This document shows positions 342-57,295 of a stretch of 64,000 bases of DNA, piece after piece. Both the position numbers and the translations under genes were made by a program. The notes below the pieces were generated by a model. The model was not told where the DNA came from and searched no databases. It saw only the letters and a program-made list of their open reading frames with translations. How positions within the stretch are numbered: position 1 is the first letter of the stretch; each line of letters opens with the position of its first letter. The DNA lies in the NCBI GenBank assembly GCA_947650285.1, contig CANTFL010000504.1:60481-124480 (forward strand). Reading direction: 5' to 3'. Source of the DNA: Hyaloperonospora brassicae. Lineage: Eukaryota; Oomycota; Peronosporomycetes; Peronosporales; Peronosporaceae.

Positions 342-1431
342 CCGTTGTGTGTTGTGTAACGATCTCAAGTGGATTGGGACAAAGCTGGTAAATCTTTCAA
401 GGGTTTACGAGATAGATTTACCAGATGATGCATCAAGCGCAGAAAACGTTTATCTCTGCGTAGGCCTTTCTTAAGTCGCCAAGTAAGGTTGACGACGGGA
501 CACTGAACGTAAGTGTCGCAACATTGGGCTTGTCTTCATTGTTGGATTGCACGCCCGACTCGACATCGGGTCGGCGCGATAGGGCGTCAGCGACGACGTT
601 CAGTCATCCTATTTTATACCCGACGGATAACTTGTTCTCCGCAAAGACAGACAACCACTTCGCCACTATTTGCAACCAGTGTGTAATTTTTATGGCCGTG
701 CGTTGTTACGCATGGTCCGTATAGACGATGAACAGGCTATCTACCAAGAGATAGACTCGAAATTTATTCAGTGCGTACTTCATGGCAAGGAGTACCTTGT
801 AATGTACGAAGTAATTACTCTCAGCTGCTTGCAGCTGACACGATTAATAGCAGATGACGCACTCGGCACCCATTTTATCAGTTTGCGTCAGTGCACAGCC
901 GATCGCAAAATCGCTGGCGTTAAGACCACATGGAACGGTCTGTCCTAATCTGCAATCGTCAAAATGAGCGATTTCGTCACGCTCTGCGTAATACCATAAA
1001 TCGAACGCTGACAGGCGGCGTATCATGACCACTCCACATTTATATTGGGTAAACAAGTAAGACGAACACTTATCGCAGAATTGTTGCGCAAGTACTTGTG
1101 CAAGTATGCCGCTAGCCTAAGGAGCTTACAAAGTCCCTTGATATCGTCTGACACAGGCCAGTCGGTGAGAGCCTTGATATCTTCGGGATATGAGTGTACA
1201 CCGTGTTTACCCGCAACGCCCCCACACAATGTGATCTCGCTAGCAACGAATATACACTTCTTGAGGTTGGCGTACAACTTATGCTTACGCATTAGTTGAA
1301 AAACCCGACGAGCGTGTGTTCTGTAAGCTTCTACATCTGACTTTCCGTCCATAGCTGGGCTATGGACGAACGTATAGTCATGTAACTCGGTGCGAAATCC
1401 CGCACCGGTCTCAGCTGATTTGTCACACAAT
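342..1431 (-). pseudogene. RT C-terminal part and RNase H remnant (family I copy A)
   Basis: Minus-strand segments match copy B pol: the region after the RT active site (AMDGKSDVEAYRTHARRV, then KLYANLKKCIF and AAYLHKY), followed by RNase H (ASDFAIGCAL, ECVICY). The first RNase H Asp, in the B motif VCDASD, is Asn here (LNASD). The polymerase YxDD region at about 1370-1390 is frame-disrupted. Pieces lie in different frames, so this is a pseudogene. The RT is interrupted at about 1431 by the insertion that runs to 3396. Confidence 0.75.
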
Positions 1432-3396
1432 TATTAGGAGGAGCCGAGATACTCAGTGCCTGTCTTGTGGAGTCAACGTCACGAAATCGCTTGTGTGAGG
1501 GTCGACCTTCCACTTGCCCAGACTAAGCGACTCACGGAGGGTGTACTCTGATTCGTGCCTTGCAGTATAGCCTTGTGCTCGCCTAGTGTGCCTGTCGGTT
1601 AAACTGGATTGAGCTCTTTATAATGGCCTTAGGAGATGTCGAACTCGCTTAAAGTTTGAGGTTGATAGTTCGCATTCGGTGCGGAAATCTTCACACCACG
1701 AACAGAGTTCTGCGATATTGGTATTGAGTCGCGGTGATCACTATTTGGAGACGTCGCGATATTGATCTTGGATCGCACCGATCTTGATTTGTCTTTGAAT
1801 CGGGGTTTTCGCTATGTGGAAATCTTCAGTCAGCAAATGATAGTCTTGTTTATGGGGTCGGTATGATCTGGTCTTGGGATTGTCCGATTCTTTCGGAAGT
1901 ACGCAGCTTGGGCCAGATAGGTTTCCCGTTTCTCCAAAATGACACGTGCCGATCGATCCTGCAGATTGCTTCAATCTTGCTCGGTCTTATCTTGAACTTC
2001 TTGTCCAGATCTTCTGATCACTTGAGCCGTCTTGCGATCTTGTGTCCAGTCTTTTTCCGTAGTTGCTGCTACCCTAGCAACTGAGTTTAGTATGAGTGCT
2101 TGATTGATCCGGATCAAATTTTCTGGAATCTCTCTTCTCGACCTTAGCTAACAATCCAAGACCGGTCTTTAATGTACTTGGAACACGCGTGTCTTGAGCC
2201 GCCGGGGAAGACAAACAACCTCTCCCGGAAAAGAGCGGGGGGCGCGTCATGAGCAGAAGAAGTAGAGTTCAAGATTGTTTATTAACCAACCAAATTACTA
2301 GCCAACCTATCTTTACACCTATTCGTAACAGTAGGTAGTTCTCCAAACCGGTATTACCCGTATACCGGTTCGTCCACTTGAACATGTGTCTAAATTTCGT
2401 GACTTGTGCTTCAATGATAGCGTCAGTATCCCAGGTATCGTACCTAAAACACCAAAATAGCCTAAATCTTAAATACAGCACCAGATACTCATTCTTAGCG
2501 CCACAATTCCAATATAAGATCCAAATATTGCCAAATGTATCTTAACTCGTTTTGCGACGTCAATTCCACCATCTTCCACTGGCCCTTCTGGTCTGAACTT
2601 TTTAAAACATCACTCAGGGATCTCTATCATGATTTTTTTCTCATGATCCGGAAGTCTCATCAGCGATATATCCATAATCAACAGGAAACATGACCTATCT
2701 GATGCCTAATTCGAGATTGTTGAGGATCGACACGATACAATTCAGCAGGAGATGTTCTTCTGTTCATTACACGTGCTCCGATAGCATCCTTCATGGTTTA
2801 TCTAACAAACGAGACCATTTACACGTCTTGAAATATCTCCCTGGACTTCCATGAGTATTCACACTTCCTGATCGAGCTATAATTAATCAAAATCAGTACT
2901 CCCATTATGGGACCAATAAAGCATATCACCGATCTGTAGAATGTTGCACCTTCGTTACAGAATCACATCGTATCACCTGGTCCAATATGCATTTTTCTCA
3001 GAGTAATTCTGCCACGGAATCCACGATCGCTGTCGATACCGGTCAATATGACGTTCCACACGTTCGTAAATCAGGAGACGTTCGCGTGTGCATTTGTGAC
3101 CCAGTGTTCACCTGATTAAACATCAACATTCTTGTCCTTGACCAACCTTCAGGTTACTCGCTTTACTTCACCCCTTTCCTTGTCCCAGATCGTTCCATGG
3201 AAATCATCTCTTTCTACGCCTCGTCTACGGTCGTTCCATTTTCATCATTCTGGCGATAGTTGGATAGGATCACTGATCCCCGTTTGGATCATCTTGCATT
3301 TCCTATTGAAACCCTAGATCACTTGGTATCATTTCCTTCAGTAAGTAACGTCTTAACTGGGTAATCACCGACCCACGTCCCAAAATTTTGATTAGT
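1432..3396 (-). repeat. Inserted solo-LTR-like element related to the family II LTR
   Basis: Alignment with copy B shows that copy A's RT sequence stops at about 1431 and resumes at 3397, so this is an insertion of about 1,965 bp. Its interior shares blocks with the family II LTR: near 2005-2045 the text around CACTTGAGCCGTC followed by GCGATCTTG parallels 23085-23110, and near 1855-1870 GGGTCGGT followed by ATGATC parallels 22945-22965. Both end in GATTAGT on the plus strand. No protein domain was recognised, so a diverged solo LTR of a family II relative is the best reading. Orientation is inferred from the family II LTR, and no clear target-site duplication was found. Confidence 0.5.
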
Positions 3397-4253
3397 GACT
3401 TTACCACACCTGTGTCTACACTAACCACTCTAAGAGCATACTGATGGGGGTTCTCACTGCTGCGCACGGGATGTCCCGTTCACGCATGAGGATCTGATAA
3501 AATCCATCCATCTGATCCATGGACGAAAAGATGGTACTTTTTGACATGCCATCTATGATAATGTCCTTCCTTGGTTGGGCTTCTGAGCCGGTACCGTTGC
3601 AGCATTCAACTTGTTGAATGCGTGCACTATCCGCCATCATCCAGTGGTCTTTTGCACACAGAATATCGAAGAGCTATAAGGAGAAGTTGATTCCCTCACA
3701 TGGCCTGCTGAAAAGTGATCCGCAAAGACTTTGTCGATCCCTAGTACTTGTTCACGAGACAGTGGCCACTGCTTCATGACACAGTACTACGAGCCCGGTT
3801 TGAGCTCGATCTCGTGTCGAGTGCCTTTGTCCTTAGGCAACTCGCAAGGTACGGATTCAAGGAACACATCACTGAATTCGATCAAATCCTTATACAAAGG
3901 ATTTGTCTGAAGTGACTTCCAGTATTGAGACGCGTATCGCTCAATCCGAGTCTTCTCATCGAGGACACTTTCGTCCATCGATGAGCTGCTGAGAACCCGT
4001 TCGTTCTCAGCAAATACTGTTGCCAACCGAATATCGGTCACATGCTCATCTCTGTGACGAGGATGCAGATTAGCTCGGCTTTGCTACTACGCAGGTCACG
4101 CAAGAACCGTTTCGGTTCTAGCGTTGGCAACTGAGTTATCTCCGAAGTTAACTTCGGAGGCACAATCAGATCAAGCGTATAAGCGCTTACGCGTGATCCG
4201 TCATTAACCAAGATGTTCAACGCATCGGCTATTTCCTGTGAACTTGTTTCCAC
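3397..4253 (-). pseudogene. RT N-terminal half (family I copy A)
   Basis: Minus-strand reading matches copy B 10710-11530. The segment at 4253-4038 (METSSQEIADALNILVNDGS) and that at 4041-3787, ending in ELPKDKGTRHEIELKPGS, form the connector before the RT fingers. The palm follows at 3640-3416, with FSSMDQMDGFYQILMRERD carrying the first catalytic Asp. The pieces are separated by stops and frame changes. The short inverted repeats seen in copy B survive here, for example GCATTCAAC/GTTGAATGC around 3600-3622. Confidence 0.75.
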
Positions 4254-4533
4254 AGGATGCTGAGAACCTTATCCCTCAGCATGAGACTGTTAAGGAAGTC
4301 CTTCCCAAGTACGTGATGACTTATTCCCTCGACATCTTCTGACTGTGGCTGTGCAACCACTGTCAGGTCTCGTCCTCTACGGTCGGCTCTCCAGTCGACC
4401 AGGATGGCCGTGTTGCCGCTTGTGGGCAACCGGTTTCTTTTCTCTAAGATGCTGTCCGCTAGGCATGCATCCATGTCCCGGTCCAATCGACTTATTCGAG
4501 TGGTGGACCTTCGGCGCCGCCTGTACTCCTGTA
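4229..4533 (-). CDS. Protease-RT linker segment of pol, open in this copy
   Basis: An open segment (…RLDRDMDACLADSILEKRN… through LWKQVHRK) lies between the protease and RT parts. It is not in the protease/RT frame but shifted by one base, and its 3' end overlaps the start of the RT segment by about 25 nt. Copy B has the same arrangement (frame through RDKALSNLWKQVPRK, overlapping VETSSQEI), plus one extra base and a block at 10261-10412 that A lacks. No enzymatic domain was recognised. It is probably part of a longer Gag-Pol polyprotein; the frame change may be ancient damage or a second recoding step. Confidence 0.45.
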
Positions 4534-4571
4534 CAGCCGTTGGGAGCGGCAGGCATCTTCACGGATCGATG

Positions 4572-5033
4572 CTACCAGCTCACCTTTGGCTCGTACTTTC
4601 TGAGCCAAGGTAATCCCAGGATGACATCAAATTTGTCATCCAGATCTAGTACGATGAAGTCATCATCGTACTGTTCGCCCTCTAAAGTGTAGTGGATTCC
4701 TACTACACGTTTCTCAACGGTTATCGATGCGCATGTTGCAAGGCGCACCGTCATCCTCGTGAGGGGAATGTCGCGCTCAACAAACTTGAGCCTACGACCC
4801 TCTAGTGACTGGCGTCTAACAAAGTTGTTCGACGCTTCTCAGTCTACTAGGGCACGAAGCGACAAATTATTTGTCGCTTCCAACTTCAAGGTGATGAGCG
4901 AAACGTCATCATCAGGTGCAGAGACACACAATGATTGTGTATCTGGATCAACTTTCGTCAAGAGATTTGCAAATTCTCTTGAGGTTGCTGGATCAGTAGG
5001 GCGCTCCGCCCCTACTGACCCCGACCATTTTTT
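4572..5033 (-). pseudogene. Retropepsin-type protease (family I copy A), broken at active site
   Basis: The minus-strand frame is -1 relative to gag. The flap and C-terminal part (ITVEKRVVGIHYTLEG, then FDVILGLPWLRKYEP) is intact and typical of retroviral-type aspartic proteases, which cut Gag-Pol into mature proteins. In copy B the catalytic motif is ALVDCGASNNFV. Here the codon after the catalytic Asp is TGA (4839-4841), so the active site is truncated. The segment ends in VSW followed by TAG (about 4572-4574), exactly as in copy B. Confidence 0.8.
4993..5033 (-). promoter_or_regulatory. Putative -1 ribosomal frameshift signal, gag to protease (copy A)
   Basis: On the minus strand the heptamer A AAA AAT (plus strand 5027-5033) lies in phase with the gag codons. 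After 8 nt comes a stem-loop with arms TCAGTAGGG…CG / CG…CCCTACTGA (4993-5018). The gag stop falls inside the stem, and protease is in the -1 frame. Copy B has the identical sequence at 9774-9814. The arrangement matches the canonical X XXY YYZ plus structure signal; function is inferred. Confidence 0.6.
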
Positions 5034-5926
5034 GATGGTCCGTCTCGCTGTTGCGGCTTCGTAACAGCGCTGGACCCACGCCCATTGCCCTTTCTGGAAA
5101 ATGGTCGTCCATCTCGCTCAGTACTGTATGGTACTGGGCGTGGAGCACTACACTCGTATGCGTAGTGCCCTAACTTCTGACAGCGATTGGACCTCTGCAA
5201 TCGCTTGTTGTTTGAAGAGCGAGGTCTCTCGTTCTCAACATAGCAGAGTTCCATTGGTTCTGGACCTCCGATCTCTTGTCGTCTCGGTGGACGATAAGAT
5301 TTCGAGCTAGCATGAGCCTGTCTCATGCTAAAGTCTTCCTGTTCCGCGGCTGATATCGCTTCTTCAAGCGTATTCAGCTCAAGGCGGAACAGGTGGCTCC
5401 TGACGGGCCCTTCTGCGAGCCCTTGCATGAACACAGTAATCAACGTGTGTTCATTGACCGTATTTGCAGTTATACAACTCGCAAGGAGTCGTATATTCTT
5501 AGCGTATGGGTGCACATCACGCGTAACTTGTTTAAGTTTCAGGAGCCTTGATCGAGCCCTGAACTCAGCCCGTGGCGGCTCAAACGTTCGTTTGAGCCCG
5601 GTGTTAAAGGCCTCTAGCGACTTAAAAGCGTATGTGTCGCTCATCTCCACCCCTAAGGCCCAAGTCTTGGCACGTTCTGCCAAGTGGGTTTGAGCAAATT
5701 TGAGTTTCATTTCCTCATCGTCGATGCGACGTGCTTTTTCAACTCTGTCGAGTTCGACGAACCATAACAACAAGGACTCTACCTCGACTCCCGTGTACTT
5801 GGGGATTAATATCTTAAGGGTTCTAGGACGACGCGTTTGTGTCGTCCCATCCTCAGCAGAATTGTATTGCTTCTGTCTTAGTAGCTCTGTCTGTTGAGGC
5901 CCGAGTTCTCTATAATTGCTCGGCAT
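5012..5926 (-). CDS. gag: Gag (capsid and nucleocapsid), 304 aa, N-terminally shortened
   Basis: This is the best-preserved gag in the window. Residues 35-200 match a retrotransposon Gag core (LLLWFVELDR, LKFAQTHLAERAKTWAL, RTFEPPRAEFRARSRLLKLKQ, ITVFMQGLAEGPVRSHLF). Residues 220-260 hold the nucleocapsid with a CCHC-type knuckle, but the first ligand is Ser (SNRCQKLGHYAYEC, position 246) where copy B has Cys. Gag would assemble virus-like particles and bind the RNA. Compared with copy B about 95 N-terminal residues are missing: 5927-6190 still shows homology but holds stops, so the ATG at 5926 is only the first available one. Confidence 0.8.
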   Translation of the reverse strand: MPSNYRELGPQQTELLRQKQYNSAEDGTTQTRRPRTLKILIPKYTGVEVESLLLWFVELDRVEKARRIDDEEMKLKFAQTHLAERAKTWALGVEMSDTYAFKSLEAFNTGLKRTFEPPRAEFRARSRLLKLKQVTRDVHPYAKNIRLLASCITANTVNEHTLITVFMQGLAEGPVRSHLFRLELNTLEEAISAAEQEDFSMRQAHASSKSYRPPRRQEIGGPEPMELCYVENERPRSSNNKRLQRSNRCQKLGHYAYECSAPRPVPYSTERDGRPFSRKGNGRGSSAVTKPQQRDGPSKNGRGQ

Positions 5927-6198
5927 GTTATTAACTTTGCTGTTACAGCAAGTCTACTTTCTTTCTTTAGGCGACATGTTCAATTTGAATGAACCTGTAT
6001 ATATCGGCATTTTGCTAGTCTCTGTCAATAGACTCTAAGATGGCGCTAATGGCGGTTTCGCCTGCGGTCTAACTCGTACGTTCTACTGGACTTCATTCTA
6101 TGTCATTTAAATGGTTGAAGTCTTCACGAGTGGCGTGAAAATTTTCTTTTCATCTAACACTTCTATGTTATATGAGGTGGTCGCGATCGCTGAACGGA

Positions 6199-6214
6199 CC
6201 ACACAGTGCTATTA
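6199..6214 (-). other. Primer-binding site relic (copy A)
   Basis: Two bases (CC) after the minus-strand end of the LTR, the sequence TAATAGCACTGTGTGG aligns with TGGTAGCACTTTGTAG in copy B. The same motif follows the LTRs of the family III elements at 21891 and 60621, so it is the tRNA primer site. The start has drifted from TGG to TAA. Confidence 0.5.
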
Positions 6215-6216
6215 GG

Positions 6217-6678
6217 TGTAGCGGGGCTTACTCGTACCAGATAACTGGTAAGACCTCGTTTAAACATAATACAAGACTGCGTGGTCCCGACGTCATGTAC
6301 TTATGTCGTGAGGAAGCGCAAGGAAGTAAACAGAGATCGGAAGCTCTGTTAGAGAAAAAAAGAACTTTATTCAATATAGATAATTTTCTTTGCAAATTAT
6401 CTTTTGTCTTGGTCGAACTATATTAAACTACAATCTCCTATTTAGGATTCTTGCTCACCAATCCTTGCGCGCGTCTAGAAGCGATGGGTGGTTAGCTTGG
6501 TTGATGAACCGTAAACGTCAGCCAATAAGTCGAGCACCCAAGAATATTGCCGTCTTGGGTAATATTCGGCCAACACCGCCTCTTCTCGAGTAATGTGGAT
6601 TAACCATTATCGAATTAGATAATATTCAAAAATTGATACATTCGTATCAATTTACATGTAATGGCTCACCCCGTTACA
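6217..6678 (-). repeat. 5' LTR of copy A (462 bp)
   Basis: The minus-strand sequence starts TGTAACGGGG and ends GCCCCGCTACA, the same kind of complementary termini as in the copy B LTR (TGTAACGGGG … CCCCGTTACA). It ends 2 nt before the primer-site relic, which fixes its role as 5' LTR. The interior is AT-rich and only distantly similar to the B LTR, so A and B are different subfamilies. It contains short inverted repeats, such as one around TTGATACATTCGTATCAA. Confidence 0.75.
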
Positions 6679-7684
6679 TTACCGACCTATATCCTTTCTT
6701 AAAAACCGGTCACGGATTTTTTTTGAAAGATGTGGCTAAACGAGTGCAAGAATTTTAAAGTACACCAAGTGCTTACGAAAAGGCTTTGCTCATGGACGTC
6801 AGCTGAGAGAAACAGTTATAATGTCGATGGCGGTCTTGTGTACGGCATAAACTGAGCCAGCAGTTGCGTAGATGCAGAATAGAGCCATCATCTAAATCGA
6901 TTCTCAGAAAGTGTATGATACGGCTGACATTTACTATTTTATCACTAGTGCTTCAACAATTTGGTTTCTCAGAGGCGTTTGTGGCCATGACACGCAACAT
7001 ACATGATGGTCCTGTAGCTCAATTTTGTCGTCAATGGCGAGATGTAAAGGCCGCGAATGTCCTGTCAGGCACTAGGCAATCTTTCCCGATGGATCTGCTG
7101 CTTTTTGCTATATGGGTGAAAGTGCTGTAGTAGGCGATGAATGACGATTTACAGGAGGTGGTCCTTAGCGTACCTCGAGTGGAGGGGCACGTCAAAGAAT
7201 TCGGCACACGTCGATGACCATACGTTTATATGCATGATGCACGCCAGTTGTTGCACGTGTTGAGCATATTGTATCGATGAGGTCAATTGTCTAACGAAAG
7301 GATGTACCAAAGTCAAAGCAAAATTAATATTTTAATTCATCTGCTCACAAGGACACCTTCATTAGTATGCAAATGCTAGTGCACGGCGACAAGACGAGAT
7401 ATCTGAGTACGCAGTTGGAACGACGGGTCTCACAGATGTAAACCGTGCAGCACGCATTCGTATGTTTTAGCGGCAGTTGGCGATGACGAGGCACCTGGCG
7501 AGCACTATAGAGTACCGCGTCTTGATTTTAAATGTCATAATGCTGCGGTGGTTTTGTTTATATCGCAGGTATTCTATCTTCCGGTATGGGAGCGGAATAG
7601 CAGCTTCGCAAAACGCAATATCATATATATATAGCATCAAATCTACCAGCTCCGACGCTTTCTGCCACCATATGGACCCGTCGG
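6679..7684. other. Gap between LTRs, no recognised gene
   Basis: No retroelement protein or repeat was recognised here. One short plus-strand ORF (6915-7130) is listed separately. The remainder holds no convincing coding sequence. Confidence 0.4.
6915..7130 (+). CDS. Weak candidate small secreted protein, 71 aa
   Basis: From the internal ATG at 6915 the product begins with a basic residue and a hydrophobic stretch (MIRLTFTILSLVLQQFGF) that looks like a signal peptide, with possible cleavage after FVA near residue 24. The remaining roughly 47 residues show no known motif, no RxLR and only one cysteine. The frame is also open upstream to 6864. Nothing else supports expression and no homology was recognised, so this could easily be a chance ORF between two LTRs. 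Confidence 0.15.
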   Translation: MIRLTFTILSLVLQQFGFSEAFVAMTRNIHDGPVAQFCRQWRDVKAANVLSGTRQSFPMDLLLFAIWVKVL

Positions 7685-8130
7685 TGTCGTAACAGGGTAG
7701 CCCGTTACATGATATTGTCATCAAGGCTAAAATGACAATAAAGAATAATTCGTTAAAAAATTCTTTCAACAATATCATGGAGCATGATGATGTTGTTGAA
7801 GATGACCGAAGGGTCCACTCATTGGTTGATGTCGTGATGGTATCAACCCACCAATCGCTGCTAGACGCGCGCAATGGGTGGTGAGTAGACGTCATCATAC
7901 GTTTAGTTAGATTAATATAATCAAGTGAAAATAAACAGAGACACGAGATTGATAGGACTTAGTTGTATTAGTTAAATTTTTTACTTTTATCAGAGACTAG
8001 AGTGTTCACTTAGTCTCCTTTCCTTTTTTGTGTTGGTGCAACACTTGGCAGAGCACTGACTATCACTGTTGTCAGTAGAAGTGAGCTCCGTACTGGTCAA
8101 CCAGTACGTCGTCACCAGTGCCCCGTTACA
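7685..8130 (+). repeat. Diverged solo LTR, family I type (446 bp)
   Basis: It begins TGTCGTAACAGGG then TAGCCCGTTACA and ends GTGCCCCGTTACA, matching the termini of the copy B LTRs. The interior follows the same order as 8203-8593 (TTGTCATC…ATGACAATAAAGAAT, GGTTGATGTCGTGATGGTATCAACC, GACGCGCGCAATG) with many substitutions. No internal retroelement sequence adjoins it, so it is probably a solo LTR left by LTR-LTR recombination. No clear target-site duplication is visible. Confidence 0.75.
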
Positions 8131-8202: not shown

Positions 8203-8593
8203 TGTAACGGGGCAGCCCGTTACATGGAATCGTCACTTTAAAGAAAGTGACAATAAAGAATATAAAGTTGGATATTCTTTGAACAATATCACCAAAGTGG
8301 TGATATTGAAGGGTCGACCAAAGAGTCTGTTCATTGGTTGATATCTTGATGATATCAACCCACCAATCGCCGCAAGACGCGCGCAATGAGTGGTGACGAG
8401 ACGTCACCATACACTCAGTTATATTAGTATAATTAAGTTAAGTCAAACAGAGAGACAGTAGTTAAAAGACTTAATTATATTAATATAACAGTTCTGCTTT
8501 TACCTTACCTACGCTTCCTCGCTTGCCACTTGTACGTCTGTCGGGGCACCGAAACCCTTGCGTTAAGTTCACGCAAGGGTGTGCCCCGTTACA
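8203..8593 (+). repeat. 5' LTR of copy B (391 bp)
   Basis: Begins TGTAACGGGG and ends CCCCGTTACA, matching 15800-16191 almost base for base. It supplies the promoter and the ends for integration. It is packed with hairpins, among them TTGATATC-type arms around 8335-8360, AATATCACC/GGTGATATT near 8285-8309, and a terminal GGGGCAC…GTGCCCC stem enclosing CCCTTGCGT/ACGCAAGGG (8540-8587). Confidence 0.95.
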
Positions 8594-8595
8594 CC

Positions 8596-8611
8596 TGGTA
8601 GCACTTTGTAG
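8596..8611 (+). other. Primer-binding site (copy B)
   Basis: TGGTAGCACTTTGTAG starts two bases after the LTR end. TGG pairs with the CCA end of a tRNA, and TGGTAGCA is compatible with an initiator-methionine tRNA ending TGCTACCA (inference). The same motif sits in the same place in the family III elements. Confidence 0.65.
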
Positions 8612-8637
8612 TCCTTCCAAGGACCACATCATCCAAC

Positions 8638-9795
8638 ATGAACATGTTGGATGATGAAGAGACCTTTCACGCCACGCGTGAAGGGTTTACCCATTTGAGT
8701 GACATCGAATGGGGTGCGGTAGAACGAATGAGTTCTACCGTAGGCGAGCTCGCCATTAGCGCCATGTTGGAGTCTCTAGACAGAGACCAACAGCATGCCG
8801 CTATAGCCAAGTTCATACAAAATGAACTTGTCGCCGATAGGGAGAAAGTAGCCTTGCTTCACCAGCAAGGCTCTCAACAGGCCGAGCAGTTGAGAGAACT
8901 CGGTGCTCAACAGACAGAGCTGTTGAGACAGCAGCAATTCCATGCTGCTGTGGGCGGGACGGCGCATGCGCGTCGTCCCGAGGTCATGAAAGTTGACATC
9001 TCCAAGTACAGTGGAGTCCCGGAGGACTCCCTGTTACTATGGTTTGTCAAACTCTCGACAGAGCCCTAAGGGCTCGTCGCGTCGAAGATGAGCAAATGAA
9101 ACTCACATTTGCTCAGACCCACTTGGCAGGACGTGCCAAAACTTGGTCCCTGGGGCTTGGAGGTAGCGACCCACATGTGTTTAGGTCGCTAGATGACTTT
9201 AAGTCCCGGCTCAGACAAACGTTTGAGCCGCCACGGGCTGAGTTCAGGGCTCGTTCAGAGCTCCTGAAACTCAAGCAGGGTAAGCGTGAATGTGCACGCT
9301 TACGCACAACATACACGACTCCTTGCGAGTAGTATAACTGCTAATCCAGTCCTTGAACACACGTTGATTACGGTGTTCATGCAAGGGCTCGCAGAAGGGC
9401 CCGTCAGGAGCCACCTGTTCCGCCTTGAGCTGAATACGCTTGAAGAAGCGATATCAGCCGCGGAACAGGAAGACTTAAGCATGAGACAGGCTCATGCTAG
9501 CTCAAACTCTTACCGTCCACCGAGACGACAAGAGATCGGAGGTCCAGAACCAATGGACCTCTGCTATGTTGAGAGCGAGAGACCTTGCTCTTCAAACAAC
9601 AAGCGATTGCTGAGGTGCAATCGCTGTCAGAAGTTAGGGCACTACGCATACGAGTGTAGTGCTCCACGCCCAGTACCAAACAGTACTGAGCGAAATGGAC
9701 GACCATTTGCCAGAAAGGGCAATGGGCGTGGGTCCAGCGCTGTTGCGAAGCCGCAACAGCGAGACGGACCATCAAAAAATGGTCGGGGTCAGTAG
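8638..9795 (+). pseudogene. gag: Gag (family I copy B), two compensating frameshifts
   Basis: The first frame, 8638-9069, gives the N-terminal region and the start of the core (SLLLWFVKL). The core continues in another frame at about 9039-9332 (LDRALRARRVEDEQMKLTFAQ, QTFEPPRAEFRARSELLKLKQ). From 9286 it returns to the first frame (RLLASSITANPVLEHTLI … ITVFMQGLAEG) to the stop at 9793-9795. The nucleocapsid has a full CCHC knuckle (CNRCQKLGHYAYEC), unlike copy A. The start ATG sits in a 13-bp-arm inverted repeat (8628-8655). About 385 codons would be intact without the two shifts near 9055 and 9290-9330. Confidence 0.85.
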
Positions 9796-9814
9796 GGGCG
9801 GAGCGCCCTACTGA
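9774..9814 (+). promoter_or_regulatory. Putative -1 ribosomal frameshift signal, gag to protease (copy B)
   Basis: The gag codons read TCA AAA AAT, giving the in-phase slippery heptamer A AAA AAT (9774-9780). An 8-nt spacer is followed by an 11-bp stem with one bulge and a 3-nt loop (9789-9814). The gag TAG (9793-9795) lies within the stem. The -1 frame is open from upstream of 9783 into protease. Copy A is identical. One caution is that hairpins are everywhere in this element. Confidence 0.65.
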
Positions 9815-10235
9815 TCCAGCAACCTCAAGAGAATTTGCAAATCTCTTGACGAAAGTTGCTCCAGATACACAATCATTGTGTGTCTCTGCACCTGGTGATG
9901 ACGTTTCGCTCATCACCTTGAAGTTGGAAGCGACAAATGATTTGTCGCTTCGTGCCCTAGTAGACTGTGGGGCGTCGAACAACTTTGTTCGACGCCAGTC
10001 ACTAGAGGGTCGTAGGCTCAAGTTTGTTGAGCGCGACATTCCCCTCACGAGGATGACGGTGCGCCTTGCAACAGGCGCATCGATAACCGTTGAGAAACGT
10101 GTAGTAGGAATCCACTACACGTTAGAGGGCGAACAGTACGATGATGACTTCATCGTACTAGATCTGGATGACAAATTTGATGTCATCCTGGGATTACCTT
10201 GGCTCAGAAAGTACGAGCCAAGGGTGAGCTGGTAG
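9783..10235 (+). CDS. Retropepsin-type protease (family I copy B)
   Basis: Read in the -1 frame after gag. The catalytic motif is ALVDCGASNNFV, with Asp in a D-C-G-A version of the usual D-[ST]-G-A, and the C-terminal motif is FDVILGLPWLRKYEP (the I-L-G-x-x-W-L of these enzymes). The domain appears complete and would process Gag-Pol as a homodimer. The first internal Met is at 9846 but frameshift entry is more likely than initiation there. The frame ends at VSW-TAG (10233-10235), and the same stop in the same context occurs in copy A. Confidence 0.8.
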   Translation, partial: SGSVGAERPTDPATSREFANLLTKVAPDTQSLCVSAPGDDVSLITLKLEATNDLSLRALVDCGASNNFVRRQSLEGRRLKFVERDIPLTRMTVRLATGASITVEKRVVGIHYTLEGEQYDDDFIVLDLDDKFDVILGLPWLRKYEPRVSW

Positions 10236-10709
10236 CATCGATCCGTGAAGATGCCTGCCGCTTGTTCATCAGATGGCCATCTGATGAACATCTTGGAGCG
10301 TCCACAAGCGTGTGGATGTTCTGCGAGTGAGTGCGATGGCCTCACTTGAGGTACGGTCGTTAGCACGACTGCACAAGATCACAGTGTAGTTGATCACTAC
10401 ACTGTGGAGCAAGCTCCCGGCGGCTGTACAGGAGTACAGGCGGCGCCGAAGGTCCACCACTCGAATAAGTCGATTGGACCGGGACATGGATGCATGCCTA
10501 GCGGACAGCATCTTAGAGAAAAGAAACCGGTTGCCCACAAGCGGCAACATGGCCATCCTAGGTCGACTGGAGAGCCGACCGTAGAGGATCGAGACCTGAC
10601 TGTGGTTGCACAGCCACAGTCAGAAGACGTCGAGGGAATAAGTCCCCACGTACTTGAGGAAGGACTTCCTTAAGAGTCTCATGCTGAGGGATAAGGCCCT
10701 CAGCAACCT
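10236..10709 (+). pseudogene. Protease-RT linker of pol (copy B)
   Basis: The segment aligns with the open linker of copy A (…STTRISRLDRDMDACLADS…, DLTVVAQPQSEDVEG). It changes frame through one extra base near 10560 and carries stops near 10347 and 10671. Positions 10261-10412 have no counterpart in copy A, either an insertion here or a deletion there; they contain a perfect 28-nt palindrome (10263-10290) and other hairpins. No enzymatic domain was recognised. Confidence 0.55.
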
Positions 10710-12692
10710 GTGGAAACAAGTTCCCAGGAAATAACCGAGGCGTTGAACGTCTTGGTTAATGACGGATCACGCGTAGGCGCTTATACGCTTGATCTGATTG
10801 TGCCTCCGAAGTTAACTTCGGAGATAACTCAGTTGCCAACGCTAGAACCGAAACGGTTCTTGCGTGATCTGCGTAGTGGCAAAGCCGAGCTAATCTGCAT
10901 CCTCGTCACAGAGGATGAGCATGTGACCGATATTCGGTTGGCAACAGTATTTGCTGAGAACGAACGGGTTCTCAGCAGCTCATCGATGGACGAAAGTGTC
11001 CTCGATGAGAAGACTCGGATTGAGCGATACGCGTCTCAATCCTGGGAGTCACTTCAGACAAATCCTTTGTATAAGGATTTGATCGAATTCAGGGATGTGT
11101 TCCTTGAATCCGTACCTTGCGAGTTGCCTAAGGACAAAGGCACTCGACACGAGATCGAGCTCAAACCGGGCTCGAAGTACTGTGTCATGAAGCAGTGGCC
11201 ACTGCCTCGTGAACAAGTACTAGCGATCGACAAAGTCTTTGCCGATCGCTTAGCAGCGGGCCATGTGAGGGAATCAGCATCCCCTCACAGCTCTCCGACC
11301 TTCTGTGTGCGAAAGGCCACAGGAGGGTGGCGGATAGTGCACGCATTCAACAAGTTGAATGCTGCAACGGTATCGGCTCAGACGCCGATAACGAGGAAGG
11401 ACGTAATCATAGATGGTATGTCGAAGAGTACCATCTTTTCGTCCATGGATCTGATGGATGGATTCTATCAGATCCTCATGCGTGAACGGGACATCCCGTT
11501 CACAGCAGTGAGTACCACCAGCGGGATGCTGTGGGAGTGGCTAGTTATGCCACAGGGGCTGAGAAATGCCCCTGCATCATTCAACAGATGTGTCACGAAT
11601 CTGTTGAGACCGGTGCGAGATTTAGCACCGAGTTGCTTAAACGATGTGTTCGCCCATAGTCGGGCTATGGACGGAAAGACGGACGTTGAAGTTTACAGAA
11701 CTCACGTTCGTCAAGTCCTGTAACTTATGCGCAAGCAAAAGTTGTACGCAAACCTCAAAGAGTGTATATTCGCGGCTAGCGAAATACCACTTCTTGGGTG
11801 CATCGTGGGCAAACACGGCGTACGCCCTGATCCCGAAAAGATCAAGGCGATCACCGACTGGCCAGTGCCAGTCGATGTCAAGGGACTAAGGAAGTTCTTT
11901 GGGCTAGCGGCGTACTTGCACAAGTACTCGCGCAACTACGCCGAAATGACGGTACATCTTTCTTGTTTACTCAAGAAAAATGTCAAGTGGTCACGGAACG
12001 CTGAGTGCCAGCGTTCCTTTAAAAGTATCAAGCGGAGCTTGATGCAGTCGCCGATCTTGGCGATTGCAGATCAGGACAGACCATTTCATGTGGTCTGTGA
12101 CGCCAGCGATTTTGCGATCGGCTGTGCGTTAATGCAATTTGATGCAGATGGCGCAGAGCGCGTCATCTGTTATCAGTCGCGTCAGCTGCAGACAGCTGAG
12201 CGCAATTACCCAGTGCATGACAAGGAACTCCTTGCCATGAAGTACGCACTGGCTAAGTTTCGCGTCTATCTCCTCGGAGATAGACCGTTTGTTGTCTATA
12301 CGGACCATGCGTCACTACGCACGGCCGTAAACAGCCCACACCTCTCGCAAAGGATGGCGAAGTGGCTGTCTTTCTTCGCAGAGTATAACTTCTCCGTGAA
12401 GTATAAACCAGGACGACTCAATGTCGTCGCTGATGCGCTTTCGCGCCGGCCCGATTTCGAGCCGGATGCACAATCCAACAGTGAGGATAAGCCCACTGTT
12501 GCGACACTGAGAGTCAGTGTCCCGTCGTCAAGTAAAATTGACGACGTACGAAAGGCATACGCAGAAGATAAGGATCTTCTGCGATTGATGGATCATCTGG
12601 TGAATCCATCCAGTAAATCCATGAGGGATTTACCGGCTTTGTACCGACCCTCATCGGATCGGTATAGTACACGCAACGGATTGCTGTACTAA
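10710..12692 (+). pseudogene. Reverse transcriptase and RNase H (family I copy B)
   Basis: One frame with a single internal stop (TAA at 11721-11723, where copy A has Gln). The RT fingers and palm show FCVRKATGGWRIVHAFNKLN, FSSMDLMDGFYQI (first catalytic Asp at about residue 247) and WEWLVMPQGLRNAPASFNR. The YxDD box reads CLND (11634-11645), so the first Asp of the pair is Asn and polymerisation should be lost. RNase H from about 12085 keeps its acidic set: VCDASD, HDKELLAM, YTDHASL and VADALSRR. The frame stops at TAA 12690-12692, in line with integrase. It would copy the RNA into cDNA in the particle. Confidence 0.9.
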
Positions 12693-14533
12693 TCAGCTGT
12701 TGCCGACGACACGCCTCGTGTCGTCGTACCCGCTCATCATGATTTGCGTTTACGCATCATGTATGAGTGTCACGATGCCCCAACAGGCGGCCATCGTGGT
12801 AGAGAAAAGACTTACCTCACGGTAAGTCGTGACTTTTACTGGCCACGCCAGTATCAGTTTGTCCGCAAGTACATTCGTGCTTGCGAGGTTTGTCAACGGG
12901 TGAAGCCTAGTCCTTCATCCCGTGCGCCATTGCAGCCTCTGCCTGTTCCGACAGTGTGCTGGCAGTCCGTTTCAATGGACTTCGTCTTCGGGAAACCCGA
13001 AGACGCTCACAAGAATAATGGTATTCTTGTGTTTGTAGACCGATTCAGCAAGATGGTCCATCTTGCTGCTGTCCCTGAGTCGATCAAGGCTCAAGGTTGT
13101 GCTCGTGTCTTTCTCGACACGGTCTTTAGACTCCACGGGTTACCCCGTGAACTCGTATCCGACCGTGACCCTCGGTTCACGGCGGCATTTTGGCAAACCG
13201 TGTTCCGTACTCTCGGAACACGATTGAAGATGTCCACTTCTGACCATCCAGAAACAGATGGTCAGACGGAACGTGCGAACCGTGTCCTCGAAGAGATTCT
13301 TCGAGGATATGTCCACTCGTTTCCGAGTTGGAGCGAATTCCTACCCATGGTGGAATTCGCCATCAATAATTCGGTGCATGCTTCAACACAGCACACACCG
13401 TTTTGCGTGAATGGCCTACGCCATCCACGAGTGCCCACCCTTATAGAGTGTGACTCTTGGATAAGGGGGGAGGGACTCGCTCGAGCAAAAACCGTTTTGG
13501 CTCTTGCTCATCACGTGTCGACGCTAACGTCGTCACGTATGATGCCGATGTCGATCAAGTCGACATCGATGAAGAAGATCACCTCAATAATAGCGATGAC
13601 GCTATTATTGACTCGGATGATGATGACGATGCTGGTATATTCAGCATCGTCAACGATTATGCCAGCGAGGAAGAAGACAACCTCGCTGAAGAAGAGAGCA
13701 ATCTCTTAGCAGTGCGCACGAAGCGCACTGAAAGACAAAACAAAGAGTCAGCAGGGAACTTCCTGCTGACTCGAGAAGCGGTAGTCCGTTTCGTTCAGGA
13801 CGCCATCGCAAATGCGGTGGACCGTCAGAAACGGAACGCAGACAAGAATGGAAGAGCAAATGTTCTTTCATTTAAAGTTAACGACCTAGTACTACTGTCT
13901 ACGGTAAACTTACCTGGACATGCAGTCACTAGTGTCGGCAGTAGTAAACTACTGCCGAAGTACATTGGGCCATTTTGAGTGTTGCATCGCAAGGGCAATG
14001 CATACACGATCGAATTGCCACGTAGGATGTGCACGCATCCTACGTTTTACGTGGGGCGACTCATACCGTACTGTCAGTACGAGCCTTCTTCTTCCGATGA
14101 AGATAGCCCCCACGTTCAAGAACATCCATCAAGTTCTTGCGTTCGCGCTCCAGACGATCCGTCTGGTCGCGCAGATATGATACCTCGGAACTCAACCGAG
14201 ATATCTCCCCGCGAGCTGTCGCCAGCTCGCCGAAAAGGGAGCGGACATCCCGCTCGACCTGAAGCTGCGCTGTGGCATAATCGGCGCGATCCCTCGCCCG
14301 ATCAGCCTCGTGCTCCTTGCGGTTCTTCCGCACGGTATCAGTCAAAGCGTAGCGCCGGTCGCGCTCGTGCTTCAAGTCATCGCGCAATTCATCGATTGCG
14401 CGATCCATCTCGTAAGGGTCGAGATGGTGAGCTAGAATCATCTGGAGGAGGTCTTTCCTCCTCCACCACATCGTTTGGTGGATGCCCACGGTGGTCAACG
14501 CTTTCTAGTGGAGCGTATCTTGAATCACCGTGA
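12693..14533 (+). pseudogene. Integrase (family I copy B)
   Basis: In frame with RT after the TAA. The zinc-binding region is ECHDAPTGGHRGREKT…CEVC. The core carries all three catalytic residues: SMDFVFG (Asp near 12978), VSDRDPRFTAAFW, and DGQTERANRVLEEI. A length change in the G run at 13465-13470 shifts the frame. The continuation holds an unusual acidic insert (…DEEDHLNNSDDAIIDSDDDDD) before the C-terminal domain (NDLVLLSTVNLPGHA, KLLPKYIGPF). A TGA at 13976 replaces the codon after GPF, and VLHRKGNAYTIELPRR follows in the same frame, open to 14533. The tail overlaps the 3' end of the antisense gene. No chromodomain is seen. Confidence 0.88.
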
Positions 14534-15669
14534 CGATTGAGGATCAAGGACGAGCTACCTCGTCCAGTGGCGGGGGTATCCACCCTCTTGGAACAGCTGG
14601 GAGCCCCGCTCTCAGCTGTTGATGGATGTTGAAGGTCTCGTCCGCCAGTATGACGAGACCCATCCGATGAGTCCTCGGGCCCATCGGTAAACACGCGCCC
14701 TAGGCGCTTGTAGACGGATTGCAAGTTTGCAATCGCGTCACGCATCTCAGCCGAGATGTGTGCCCTTCCCCAGGGCGAACTTAGGGAATACACGTCCCTA
14801 TGTGCACGCTGCGAGTTGTCAACACAACTCGCACAAGGGTCTCCCCATGTGAGGCAAGGAATGTCTGCCTCACTCGACAAACAGTGCAACCGGTACCTAG
14901 CACCGGTTGGCGTTCGCCTTTCGAACCTGAGGCGTGTCGCCTCAAGTTTCTTGAGCCACCCTTCTCGTCGAAAATTCTTTACGTTTTGGACGAACGCGTT
15001 TTACGCAGCCAAAAGCGATGCTTTGTCACGCTTTTGGTTGCTGTTGTACCATCGATGTCTGAGAAAGACATCGAGATAAAAATCTTCTTCAGCGCGAAAG
15101 TTCTTCGCGCTGGAACTCAAGCCGTGAAGCTCAGTTGCATCGAATAAGGGTATTCGATGGTGTTGGCTTGTCTCGTGAGACAAGCTATTGATGATCCGTT
15201 CGGGCAAACGCCACGGCTTGAGCTCATCACGCTTCACAGTGGTACCTTTGTCGGTACCACGGCTCCCAGATTGACGACGGCTCACGCCATCGTCATCACG
15301 CTCGTGCGAAGACGCACGAGCCGGCGGTGGCAAGGAATAATATTCCCCACCGCCCTGATCATCGTCATCACTGCCGAACAGACTGTGATGCAAATCACGA
15401 GTCCGTTCGTTCGGCAGTGGCCTTGGCGAATACTGAGGCGTCGCCGGTGAGCGAGACGCCTCTGGCGCATTGCCCGAGTCAGACACGTCTGACTCGCCAG
15501 AGCAGATGACCTCAATGTCGGGGTCATCATGCGCACGCGGTGTTGTACCGCGTGCACCTGCAGCACCTGTTGCTACAGGCGAAGAAGGAGCAGCAGACGA
15601 CGAATCGTCTGCCGAAGAGGCTGGCACAGCACCGGGCTGTGTGGATCTTGAGTCACCTCGCATAGACAT
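14061..15669 (-). pseudogene. Antisense gene between integrase and 3' LTR; coiled-coil protein of unknown function
   Basis: On the minus strand a frame runs from ATG 15669 to 14389 with only one stop (TAA 15001-15003, between DKASLLAA and NAFVQNVKNF). A shift near 14450 leads into a second frame ending at 14061. The predicted product is about 535 residues. Residues 1-110 are Ser/Pro/Asp-rich, with DIEVICSGESD at 51-61 resembling a SUMO-interaction motif (inference). The middle is basic and aromatic (FYLDVFLRHRWYNSNQ, REGWLKKLEATRLRFERR), and the C-terminal 100 residues form a strong coiled coil (AIDELRDDLKHERDRRYAL, VSYLRDQTDRLERERKNL). It starts about 130 bp from the 3' LTR and converges on integrase. 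No known family was recognised. Confidence 0.6.
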
Positions 15670-15788
15670 GTTAACTATGCGAGGTCAAGCGGAAAGTGAA
15701 TGGAACGGACCCAACAAGTGCTCCCTGTCCCAATGGTGCCCAACGGGTGGCCTCCGTATTTTTGATATTCACACGGTGACTATCAGTT

Positions 15789-15799
15789 AAGGGGGGTGA
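15789..15799 (+). other. Polypurine tract (copy B)
   Basis: AAGGGGGGTGA lies directly before the 3' LTR, the position and composition expected for the plus-strand primer. Confidence 0.7.
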
Positions 15800-16191
15800 T
15801 GTAACGGGGCAGCCCGTTACATGGAATTGTCACTTTAAAGAAAGTGACAATAAAGAATATAAAGTTGAATATTCTTTGAACAATATCACCAAAGTGGTGA
15901 TATTGAAGGGTCGACCAAAGAGTCTGTTCATTGGTTGATATCTTGATGATATCAACCCACCAATCGCCGCAAGACGCGCGCAATGAGTGGTGACGAGACG
16001 TCACCATACACTCAGTTATATTAGTATAATTAAGTTAAGTCAAAGAGAGGGACAGTAGTTAAAAGACTTAATTATATTAATATAACAGTTCTGCTTTTAC
16101 CTTACCTACGCTTCCTCGCTTTCCTTGTGTACGTCTGTCGGGGCACCGAAAACCCTTGCGTTAAGTTCACGCAAGGGTGTGCCCCGTTACA
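15800..16191 (+). repeat. 3' LTR of copy B (392 bp)
   Basis: It matches 8203-8593 with about 8 substitutions and one extra A (GAAAACCC for GAAACCC). It starts TGTAACGGGG directly after the polypurine tract and ends CCCCGTTACA. The flank CAAAG resembles CAGAG before the 5' LTR. Four of the differences cluster in one spot (TTGCCACTTGT versus TTTCCTTGTGT), hinting at a local event rather than scattered mutation. Confidence 0.95.
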
Positions 16192-17460
16192 CAAAGCGTT
16201 AAACACCATACTGCAGTTCGCTCAGGTACGGGGTGGGTTCAAACTCCGGAACTAGCATAATTTGAAACATATCGACTCTAGTCGTTCGCCACAGTTTTAC
16301 AATAGTCACCTAAAGTTTGAAACCCTCTTTTAACACTAAGTCCTGGCTAGCCCCGTATATTCATGATCAGGACGATCGGCGGCATATATACTCTACGAAG
16401 CTCACCAGCTATTCCTTTACCGCCCTCAGTCGGACCAGATCATATGAATGGACGTTCACAATCGCTCATTCGCTTGTTTGGTGCACTCATGTAATGACAC
16501 ATGAAGAGGTAGACTCATGGTCGATGTATCCGTGGGCTGACAACCCTTGGATTATCTACATCGGGGAGAGCCTGTTAAAGCCACGTAAATATGACAAACT
16601 GCGGCCCTGTGCACCTCCAGATCCAGCGCATATGGGTATCAACTAGCTCATGTGCTCTTCCTACAGTCGGTGGAAAAGCGCACCAGCAGGCCAATCTATG
16701 ACGCTGGAGACTGGCAATCCTGTCAAGTCCACCTGAGATTGCCATTGGCACGCAGCTTCACGTTCACTGGCATATTCAATCACGGAACCCTCCACCTCTG
16801 GCTCATGTAAACGCCTGGGCGCACACATCGAATGGCCGCGTCCAAGGAATTTTATACGACCTAAGTTTCGAAAAGTCGAACATCATCGTCGTGGAGGAAG
16901 CAACTATTGTCATACATTGGATGTAGCTGCGGATACGATACCAGATCAGCCGACGGCGGTCGACTGTCAACTGCTTTAGGAAAGACAGCTGAAACATTTT
17001 ACAATATTTACGACACATACACGACTGCAAGGCATGCTATAGAAAGTGCTCGACATCATCGCAAAACGACATGCTCTTCTGGAATGAAAGAAACAACCGT
17101 TTCGGTATTATATTAGATGATAGAGGCACGTCAACTCCGCTGGAAGGTAAACTACAAGTTGCAGCGCGAAGTAGCGGCTGGCAAATCGCCACCCTACAAT
17201 AGACATCGGCTACATTGTGGACGCACGGCCACGAGCTCATAGACTAGGTTTGGTTCAGTTATCGCGTCGCGACAAAACAATTCAATATCCATCAGACTAG
17301 GCGTGCACTCGATCCATCTTGTGGCATGCAGCAGTGCTGCTACAAAGTGACGAAAACATTGGAAATCACCTTTTGATCCTGCCCGTGTCCCCAAGCCTGC
17401 ATGACAAAGCTTGTTTGTAATTGGACCAGTCAACGGTAGAAGATACACCCATTGCACGGA
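16192..17460. other. Intergenic, nothing recognised
   Basis: Only short, overlapping ORFs on both strands, the longest at 16317-16646 (plus, 109 aa), with no signal peptide or domain that I recognise. No LTR termini or tandem repeats were seen. Confidence 0.4.
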
Positions 17461-21411: not shown

Positions 21412-21888
21412 TGACGGGGTTACACGTCGACTGGTAGTCGACAATTTGTGTGGTGCACACAAGGGATGGGATCCCTTGTTAAAGTAATATCAGAACACAG
21501 TATCAATTGTTGAAGACTGATGTCTGTCAACCATTGATTACGAGATCTTTTAATAGGTTTATTTAGGACAATAGCGAGCAGGTTAATTACGTTGTTCTAA
21601 GGTGTTCTTTTAGGTTACAAGAAGAAATAATACACAGTTCCCATTTCGATCCGATAGACACGTGCCTTTTGAGGCATCTTGTGATCTTTGAAGAGGTAGC
21701 AACGCCTTGATAAGGCAGCTACTCCTTGCACTCTGTGCGTTGATCGGGGGAATCGTTTGAGTCCCCCTGGAACAATGACCGTAAGCTCTCTAAGCTTTTT
21801 GACTCTTTGAGTCGGGTTCGTGGAACCAAAGTTGCTCGTAGAGCGTTAAGTCTTCCTCTGACTTAAGAAGCTGTGTAGCTCCTATTCA
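21412..21888 (+). repeat. Family III 5' LTR (477 bp)
   Basis: Begins TGACGGGGTTACACGTCGAC and ends GTAGCTCCTATTCA, followed by CT and the primer site. It matches the reverse of 60624-61099 (476 bp) in order and motifs, such as the hairpin AAGGGAT/ATCCCTT near 21460-21480, GACTC/GAGTC boxes near 21800-21825 and the CCCCCTGGAACA block. Confidence 0.8.
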
Positions 21889-21890
21889 CT

Positions 21891-21906
21891 TGGTAGCACT
21901 AGTAGT
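21891..21906 (+). other. Primer-binding site (family III fragment)
   Basis: TGGTAGCACTAGTAGT lies two bases after the LTR end and shares its first ten bases with the copy B primer site. Confidence 0.6.
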
Positions 21907-21947
21907 CAATCTACGCCTGATTTGGTAACGACTGATCCTCTGTGAGG

Positions 21948-22703
21948 ATGGAGCAATCCACACCCCTCTCTGAGGCCCAAAAGGTCGCGCTTGATAAGAT
22001 GACCTCGGCCGTAGGCCCATAGTATGAGTAGTTTCTAGCTGGACAAGGTCCCGATGTGCTCAATGCACGAGTCGAGACCTTCATGAAGTATGAAACGGCC
22101 CAGATAGGGCAGGTTCAGAACCGAGAAGCGTCGGCTATGCCAACACGCTACGTGGCGATGCCAGATGAAGAGGCTAACTTCGCCCCCTTAGGGTGGACGT
22201 TAAATGTTACTCCGGGAAAGAGGGGGAAAACCTGACCCTCTGGATCCGTGGGATTGAAATGGCCATGAACTCTGGCCTTATCTCACTGGACAACCAGCGG
22301 GTGTCGTTGGCTATCTCCAAGCTCGATGGAAGAGCTAGAGAGTGGCCTCTAACGTGTGGAACGTAGGTCGACTTGGTGTTTTCCACATGTGAAACGCTCA
22401 GGTTAGACATTTTGCGAGATTTCTCGCTGCCCAACCAGGCTTATTGCGTGCGCTTACGCTTCTTGTCTACCCGTCAGAGTAAAAATGAGTTAACGGACTA
22501 TGTCCAAGAGTTGAGAACTCTGATGACTGCGATGCAGTCTGACCCTCTCCCTGCGACAGTCTGTGTGAATGTCTTCATGAAAGGTATTCAATAATGGCGT
22601 TTCCAGGACCAAGGTGTTTCGGATCTATCCCTTTACTTTTGAGAGATCTGTTAGCATCGCTCAAAATGCTGAGCACAACTTCAAGTCGGCCAGACTTGGT
22701 TGA
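21948..22703 (+). pseudogene. gag: Gag N-terminal part, family III, interrupted
   Basis: From ATG 21948 the product aligns with copy E gag (MEQSTPLSEAQKVALDK). Several in-frame stops occur near 22018-22036. Recognisable blocks continue (GENLTLWIRGIEMAMNSGLI, NQRVSLAISKLDGRAREW, PATVCVNVFMKGI) to SARLG followed by TGA (22701-22703). The same TGA occurs at the same codon in copy E. The nucleocapsid part would lie beyond the family II insertion. Confidence 0.75.
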
Positions 22704-22711
22704 AATAGGTA

Positions 22712-54003: not shown

Positions 54004-54070
54004 ACATCCCCCACCAGACTGACGCCACCACAAAACGTGAATCGAATTCTTTTCTTACAGAGGACGGTGT

Positions 54071-56697: not shown

Positions 56698-56699
56698 AG

Positions 56700-57294: not shown

Positions 57295-57295
57295 G

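Follow-up and report, generated by a model that had tools for sequence, protein, structure and literature searches.

Quasipalindromes, that is, imperfect inverted repeats, are reportedly mutation hotspots at which template switching acts. Folding that runs through coding sequence has been described as genome-scale ordered RNA structure (GORS) in persistent plus-strand RNA viruses such as hepatitis C virus (HCV), pegivirus and murine norovirus. The minimum folding energy difference (MFED) given in PMC7566573 is 6.0-10.9% for HCV; across four structured data sets, HCV among them, it is 7.7-12.0%, compared with 0.7-1.6% in viruses without such structure. A threshold of 3% is in use for GORS (PMC3950689). 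The former source also describes HCV stem-loops as poorly conserved between subtypes. In maize, miRNA-like hairpin regions linked to small RNAs occur in genes and in long terminal repeat (LTR) elements, and are frequent in the latter (PMC10760457). Here we describe a Ty3/Gypsy LTR retrotransposon, copy B, which is tiled with short perfect hairpins and lies at 8203..16191 (+) of a 64,000-nucleotide stretch of Hyaloperonospora brassicae DNA (contig CANTFL010000504.1, positions 60,481 to 124,480), referred to below as the window. No earlier description of a hairpin-tiled retrotransposon was found in a title-level survey of the open-licence PMC literature.

Like GORS viruses, the family of copy B (the tiled family) folds through its coding sequence and shows an energy excess over shuffled sequences. 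Unlike them, it is an LTR retrotransposon with an MFED of 45-49%, equal folding on both strands and short perfect stems. In 350-nt fragments the MFED was 44.9% (sense) and 44.6% (antisense) for copy B, and 49.1% and 49.8% for another copy, L026, in which all 22 sense-strand fragments reached at least 29%. The tiled family is thus a strand-symmetric, transposable-element form of whole-genome folding, several-fold stronger than the 6-12% of RNA viruses (PMC7566573), a comparison in which fragment lengths differ and programs may. The poor conservation of HCV stem-loops between subtypes has a counterpart here, as two Ty3 families of this genome share no hairpin positions beyond chance. The maize regions likewise place local hairpins in LTR retrotransposons; they fold like miRNA precursors, whereas the tiled family has about 140 short stems per copy. 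The theme of imperfect inverted repeats is shared with quasipalindrome template switching, although in the tiled family the hairpins are element-wide and the stems are conserved.

Hairpin density in the tiled family

Perfect inverted repeats (arms of 7 bp or longer, loops of up to 15 nt) numbered 132 in copy B, compared with a mean of 6.4 and a maximum of 13 in 50 dinucleotide shuffles. A preliminary description of this DNA had claimed a hairpin excess at arms of at least 9 bp and loops of 0-10 nt; at that setting 66 were counted, while 100 dinucleotide shuffles gave 0.37 on average and 3 at most, and all eight hairpins it singled out lie exactly where it placed them, with perfect complementarity. 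Its spacing of one hairpin every 25-40 bp was overstated: the 130 non-overlapping hairpins of copy B, covering 38% of its length, average one per 61 bp (L026: 139, covering 41%). The spacing was not regular (coefficient of variation 0.63, versus 0.59 for random placement). Local-fold z values ranged from -9 to -21 in all eight 1-kb bins from position 8001, on both strands. Tiling was found in 20 of 20 long copies fetched from the genome, with 129-151 inverted repeats each (a few hundred flanking bases included). It is a property of the whole family and is present in LTRs, coding and non-coding parts; with arms of at least 7 bp, each LTR of copy B has 8 inverted repeats, versus 0.4 (5' LTR) and 0.3 (3' LTR) expected.

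The preliminary description had also suggested that codons are chosen to pair with their neighbours, and this held when each coding segment was shuffled 100 times with its codons preserved. In most frames these shuffles yielded about a tenth of the observed hairpins (arms of at least 7 bp): 9 versus 0.7 and 7 versus 0.6 for the first and second parts of gag, 10 versus 0.9 for the protease, 17 versus 1.0 for the reverse transcriptase, 15 versus 1.1 for RNase H, 11 versus 0.9 for the integrase, 7 versus 0.7 for 13454-13978, and 13 versus 1.1, 11 versus 1.0 and 8 versus 0.5 for three frames on the antisense strand. The short segment 13982-14110 had just 2, versus 0.4. Copia and flanking controls were near zero, and the stems are conserved, as described below. 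Chance, base composition and codon bias as the cause of the hairpins were ruled out by the dinucleotide and codon-preserving shuffles, and we give them practically no weight.

Elsewhere in the window, blocks of 6.5-14.5 kb contained 18, 10, 24, 14 and 9 inverted repeats, versus 6.2, 10.5, 16.8, 5.5 and 4.8 in shuffles. Three Copia elements of the same genome were essentially unfolded (z -2.2 to 1.7, MFED -3.9 to 5.0%); one of them, L048, had a slight hairpin excess (9 versus 4.2, with a maximum of 8 in 30 shuffles, arms of at least 6 bp). Copy A, a decayed relative of copy B in the opposite orientation at 1-7990 (-) of the window, had 41 hairpins with arms of at least 7 bp, versus 6.6. The preliminary description was therefore right that copy A carries the pattern imperfectly, and the count is consistent with loss of stems with age.

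A second Ty3 family, family D, is represented in the window by copy D at 53468-61099 (-), most of which folds moderately on both strands. This family is separate (65% DNA identity to the tiled family) and common in the genome (at least 150 matches scored). Long perfect stems were few (19 versus 6.7 and 8 versus 3.3). In two loci, however, the fold z against codon shuffles was -4.3 to -11.9 on both strands, and the MFED was 17.6% sense and 21.6% antisense in one, 12.2% and 17.0% in the other. Family D therefore shares strand-symmetric local folding with the tiled family, at an MFED of 12-22%, while its stems are shorter, less perfect and at other positions: hairpins at homologous sites coincided in 2 of 18 cases, with 1.6 expected under the null. 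To say that the hairpins are mostly lost in copy D is a simplification. A weak version of the pattern is indeed all that occurs there, but copy D is a member of a different family, in which the better-kept copies show a weaker strand-symmetric folding of their own.

Conservation and pairing of the stems

Variation was counted in 21 long copies (the 20 fetched and copy B) out of 32 mapped, all from one genome; 10 partial loci and copy A (L029) were excluded, and L001-L008, L030, L031 and L036-L038 duplicate other loci. These 21 copies are 93-99.9% identical to one another, and the conservation of stems can be measured copy by copy. Stems were set in one reference copy (B, L026 or L010), and variants seen at least twice were counted only in the other copies (20, 15 and 18, respectively). 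Sites with letters in fewer than 70% of copies were skipped in this test; the paired, private and LTR counts described below required letters in at least 16 copies.

With references B, L026 and L010, stem sites varied at 28 of 1476, 37 of 1715 and 21 of 1704, and inner stem sites at 13 of 1154, 18 of 1344 and 10 of 1332 (0.8-1.3%). In comparison, loop sites varied at 41 of 482, 52 of 553 and 39 of 554 (7-9%), and the remaining sites at 359 of 6023, 340 of 5708 and 298 of 5723 (5-6%). The odds ratio for stems was 0.23-0.35 (p 1e-11 to 2e-15), and loops varied at least as much as the rest. The depletion held separately in the LTRs, gag-pol and the antisense region, except for the 3' LTR with reference L010 (p = 0.08). 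At third codon positions of pol, 8 of 254 sites varied in stems and 49 of 662 outside; between copies, stem sites of the 5' LTR varied at 4 of 151 versus 30 of 241 others, and those of the 3' LTR at 7 of 153 versus 30 of 240. Private changes of single copies occurred in stems at 0.23-1.57 times the non-stem rate (10 copies with more than 15). Stem variants that pass between copies are thus depleted, as expected if selection keeps the stems during replication of the element.

One alternative is that imperfect inverted repeats become perfect during copying, when the polymerase (reverse transcriptase or one of the host) folds back and uses one arm as the template for the other. Such copying would yield perfect Watson-Crick pairing, sterically allowed loops and no preference for G.U pairs without any function, and indeed no G.U preference was seen. 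Moreover, seven paired private changes kept complementarity, compared with a mean of 0.67 (range 0-2; 8 in total) in 12 slid controls. One paired change was found in L025, a copy with just 23 private changes; in L025, the hairpin at 13584..13611 (+) (12-bp arms, loop of 4) has one A-T pair replaced by G-C on both sides. Paired changes above chance can reflect either compensation or template switching at a low rate. However, they were not the main class of stem variation: among 61 variable stem pairs, only 6 had two Watson-Crick alternatives that each occurred two or more times, while arm-to-arm repair would be expected to spread about half of the stem mutations. In addition, variable stem sites numbered 70, whereas about 188 would be expected from the non-stem rate. 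Neither arm appeared to be clearly overwritten in comparison with family D (29 versus 24, with 12 ties, among 65 pol hairpins); amino-acid identity to family D was 0.49 in left arms, 0.45 in right arms and 0.55 outside hairpins. The 6 of 61 are too few for stems kept intact by copying between arms, and template switching, one of the earlier ideas, is not supported as their only maker and keeper, given the few paired changes and the lack of clear arm asymmetry. We consider a copying origin unlikely, although snap-back copying may still contribute at a low rate, and selection in the replicating lineage is a better account.

Base pairing in a single RNA strand tolerates G.U pairs and not A.C. Because a G.U pair reads as an A.C mismatch on the opposite strand, folding of both strands requires Watson-Crick pairs. 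Interior stem mismatches in L026 were 12 GT and 10 AC, and in five other copies at the same setting they ranged from 11 GT and 15 AC to 14 GT and 10 AC. The excess of hairpins over codon shuffles (arms of at least 7 bp) in pol was 70.2 when GT was allowed and 73.6 when AC was allowed; the corresponding excesses over shuffles were 16.1 and 18.0 in gag, and 34.0 and 34.8 in the antisense region. Among transmitted inner changes, GT and AC numbered 7 and 6, 4 and 6, and 3 and 5 with three different reference copies, and a GT variant occurred in 18 of the varying stem pairs, an AC variant in 26. A per-cell count of GT and AC (119 versus 235) weighted shared changes by copy and was superseded by these counts per change. 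Perfect stems fold equally on the two strands by necessity, and the information comes from the counts of mismatches and variants. GT and AC defects are about equally frequent, and the pairing rule is therefore Watson-Crick and strand-symmetric, unlike that expected from selection on the sense RNA only. The RNA-type pairing of GORS (G.U tolerated, sense folding stronger than antisense), which is our own reading of its defining features, was not seen, as GT equalled AC and the strands were equal. That strand-symmetric folding is under selection appears highly probable from these data.

The stems average about 9 bp, with loops of at least about 4 nt. When hairpin centres in L026 were taken from stretches of 7 or more pairs starting 7-18 nt apart, pairing at these centres was at background (0.16-0.34) for bases 1-4 nt apart, rose to 0.5-0.7 at 5-6 nt and fell to background again from 28 nt; a folded strand requires such a small loop of unpaired bases. 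The mean arm length was 8.3-9.3 bp for loops of 1-9 nt. Since arm length stays steady while the span grows with the loop, the idea that the span is fixed by small-RNA length was rejected. Shorter arms were higher in G+C, and the spread of hairpin energies was 3.37 kcal/mol, compared with a mean of 4.42 and a minimum of 3.81 in permutations (0 of 200 were as narrow), which points to selection for a certain hairpin stability. There was a modest bias in codon register: 22 of 122 coding hairpins (18%) were in the register that puts third codon positions opposite third positions and position 1 opposite 2, versus 24-36% in codon shuffles. The state that is kept is therefore Watson-Crick self-complementarity in stems of about 9 bp with loops of at least about 4 nt, of near-constant stability and equal on both strands.

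Possible functions of the folding

That this conserved, strand-symmetric short-hairpin state of the whole element is best explained by selection is well supported, and several functions were considered for it. The hairpins could serve the sense genomic RNA alone, for instance as Gag packaging sites, in translation control or in stability, as in GORS viruses. The very strong folding (MFED 49%), the sterics of the hairpins and a candidate primer binding site free of hairpins with arms of at least 9 bp agree with this. Under such selection, however, G.U should be tolerated above A.C, and it is not (18 GT versus 26 AC among varying pairs); the antisense strand folds equally, and the loops of 4-6 nt showed no common motif by eye (share of A in loops, 0.32). 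The preliminary proposal that genomic RNA is selected for local folding thus captured the selection but covers too little: G.U has no advantage over A.C, and folding is as good on the antisense strand as on the sense strand. We regard a function in the sense RNA only as quite improbable.

Strand symmetry would be natural for a role at the DNA level, an idea also known as fold pressure. DNA hairpins or cruciforms, or joint folding of single-stranded minus-strand cDNA and plus RNA, could aid recombination, strand transfer or integration, and uneven identities suggest that some copies may be recombinant. On the other hand, a 9-bp stem is short to be extruded from a DNA duplex, and the three Copia elements have a similar replication cycle without folding. 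A DNA or cDNA role is rather unlikely in our view; both it and snap-back copying at a low rate are possible.

We favour selected folding of both strands, most likely for escape from RNA silencing, as the best explanation overall, with a confidence somewhat below even. Selection would act because RNAs of both polarities must fold simultaneously, namely the sense genomic RNA and a putative antisense RNA from the antisense gene or from read-through. Each strand would be tied up in hairpins with stems of about 9 bp, a length that does not suffice for Dicer. Self-folded sense and antisense RNA would then anneal slowly or poorly, and guide RNAs would find few open sites, so that the element might escape the silencing of its host. 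Host silencing genes were indicated by Piwi-domain matches at 3 places and an RNA-dependent RNA polymerase match at 1. In favour of this purpose, PMC3522703 describes small RNAs along whole Gypsy elements of Phytophthora infestans, on both strands and with no obvious antisense bias. The purpose, silencing escape, is offered tentatively; of the preliminary ideas it takes up the one on small RNAs, read as protection from them. We further suggest, as a conjecture, that a Ty3 lineage may have shaped its entire length, non-coding parts as well as genes, for simultaneous folding of both strands into short hairpins, largely through synonymous codons, giving self-occlusion against sense-antisense pairing and guide RNAs, and that selection keeps this state to varying degrees in at least two families of one genome.

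Several observations weigh against this explanation. Differences between the two LTRs of one copy, which date from after insertion and are expected to be neutral, were also rarer in stems (46 of 2857 versus 113 of 4455, or 1.6% versus 2.5%, ratio 0.63; 19 of the 21 copies, L009 and L019 being left out, with L011 supplying 52 of the 159 differences). This depletion is weaker than that between copies; still, part of the stem depletion may not reflect selection before insertion, or recombinant copies may blur the control. Family D is folded without a convincing BLASTP relative of the antisense gene, so this gene is not required. The three Copia elements are unfolded in the same genome, and escape by folding is therefore not a general need of the elements there. 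In Phytophthora infestans, the yield of small RNAs per Mb is reported as highest at inverted and tandem repeats (PMC3804510), so hairpins can also feed silencing. The same source gives mostly 24-30 nt as the size of LTR-element small RNAs, in conflict with PMC3522703, where 21-nt small RNAs are twice as many as those of 25/26 nt. If silencing escape is true, the folding would be a sequence-based counter-defence of transposons. The presence of tiled Ty3, half-tiled Ty3 and unfolded Copia elements in one genome makes the silencing question directly testable with small-RNA data.

Element anatomy and other sequences of the window

Copy B is a member of the Ty3/Gypsy (Metaviridae-type) elements by its sequence. 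It is flanked by LTRs of 393 bp that are 97.7% identical (5' LTR 8203..8594 (+), aligned to 15800-16192; 3' LTR 15799..16191 (+)), and Pfam domains follow the order protease, reverse transcriptase, RNase H and integrase along 9690-13709. The candidate primer binding site at 8596..8613 (+), with TGG right after the LTR, probably has this role according to general LTR-element anatomy. The candidate polypurine tract at 15788..15799 (+) adjoins the 3' LTR, and only one hairpin with arms of at least 9 bp reaches it, namely that at the start of the LTR (15799). Two neighbouring hairpins, with arms of 10 and 11 bp and loops of 4 nt each, occupy 15799..15851 (+). A 14-bp hairpin at 8627..8656 (+) spans the gag start codon (ATG 8638), and a perfect 28-nt palindrome (arm 14, loop 0) lies at 10263..10290 (+).

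The gag region (8638..9795, +) has a weak CCHC knuckle match scoring under the Pfam cut-off, and its frame is disrupted in copy B between 9069 and 9268. It is followed by the aspartic protease (9690..10235, +; PF08284, 2.7e-8), the reverse transcriptase (10695..11723, +; PF00078, 4.4e-14), the RNase H region (11727..12692, +; PF17917, 4.4e-34) and the integrase (12696..13709, +; PF17921, 2.4e-21, and PF00665, 3.9e-10). The hairpin-tiled antisense gene at 14061..15684 (-), which lies between pol and the 3' LTR, is split into three frames in copy B. In L026, which has long open frames for gag and pol, it is a single frame of 540 aa at 6063-7682 (-) of that locus. The antisense protein had 13 relatives at E<=0.001, with downy mildews represented by entries from, among others, Peronospora matthiolae and Hyaloperonospora arabidopsidis. 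A Pfam scan of its pieces and of two relatives gave nothing above cut-off. Public relatives bear names such as 'Core-binding domain-containing' or 'RxLR effector candidate', and these look like mislabelled transposon frames. A BLASTP search of family D for relatives of the antisense gene gave nothing convincing (best E 0.002, gag frame versus P0129); the family D locus L039 has an unrelated frame of 472 aa on its antisense strand.

In the genome (100.56 Mb in 898 contigs), a 2-kb pol query gave at least 40 matches at 95-100% identity, copy B included, among the best 40 of 2454 first-look candidates. The nearest named protein was from Peronospora effusa (82% across the whole query). Relatives of the tiled family were not confirmed in collections of viral and genome contigs (13 and 26 pattern matches).

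Among the 1-kb bins of the window, the strongly folded ones were in the Ty3 copies A, B and D, in a Ty3 fragment near 51.5 kb and in two repeats (21-24 and 35-37 kb). The remaining bins stayed, with few exceptions, within about 2.6, and the part of copy D at 54-56 kb was unfolded too, as was a worn Ty3 fragment at 29.2-30.6 kb. From 36500 to 51000 the window is low in G+C (about 0.35-0.40, versus about 0.47-0.50 in the neighbouring blocks), with little hairpin excess (the 24 versus 16.8 given above). The repeat at 21414-23967 and 35308-36563 has stretches repeated within it and contains a 166-aa frame with no Pfam match; over 1256 bp its two copies share 98.7% identity, and its folding is moderate and strand-symmetric (z about -3 to -6).

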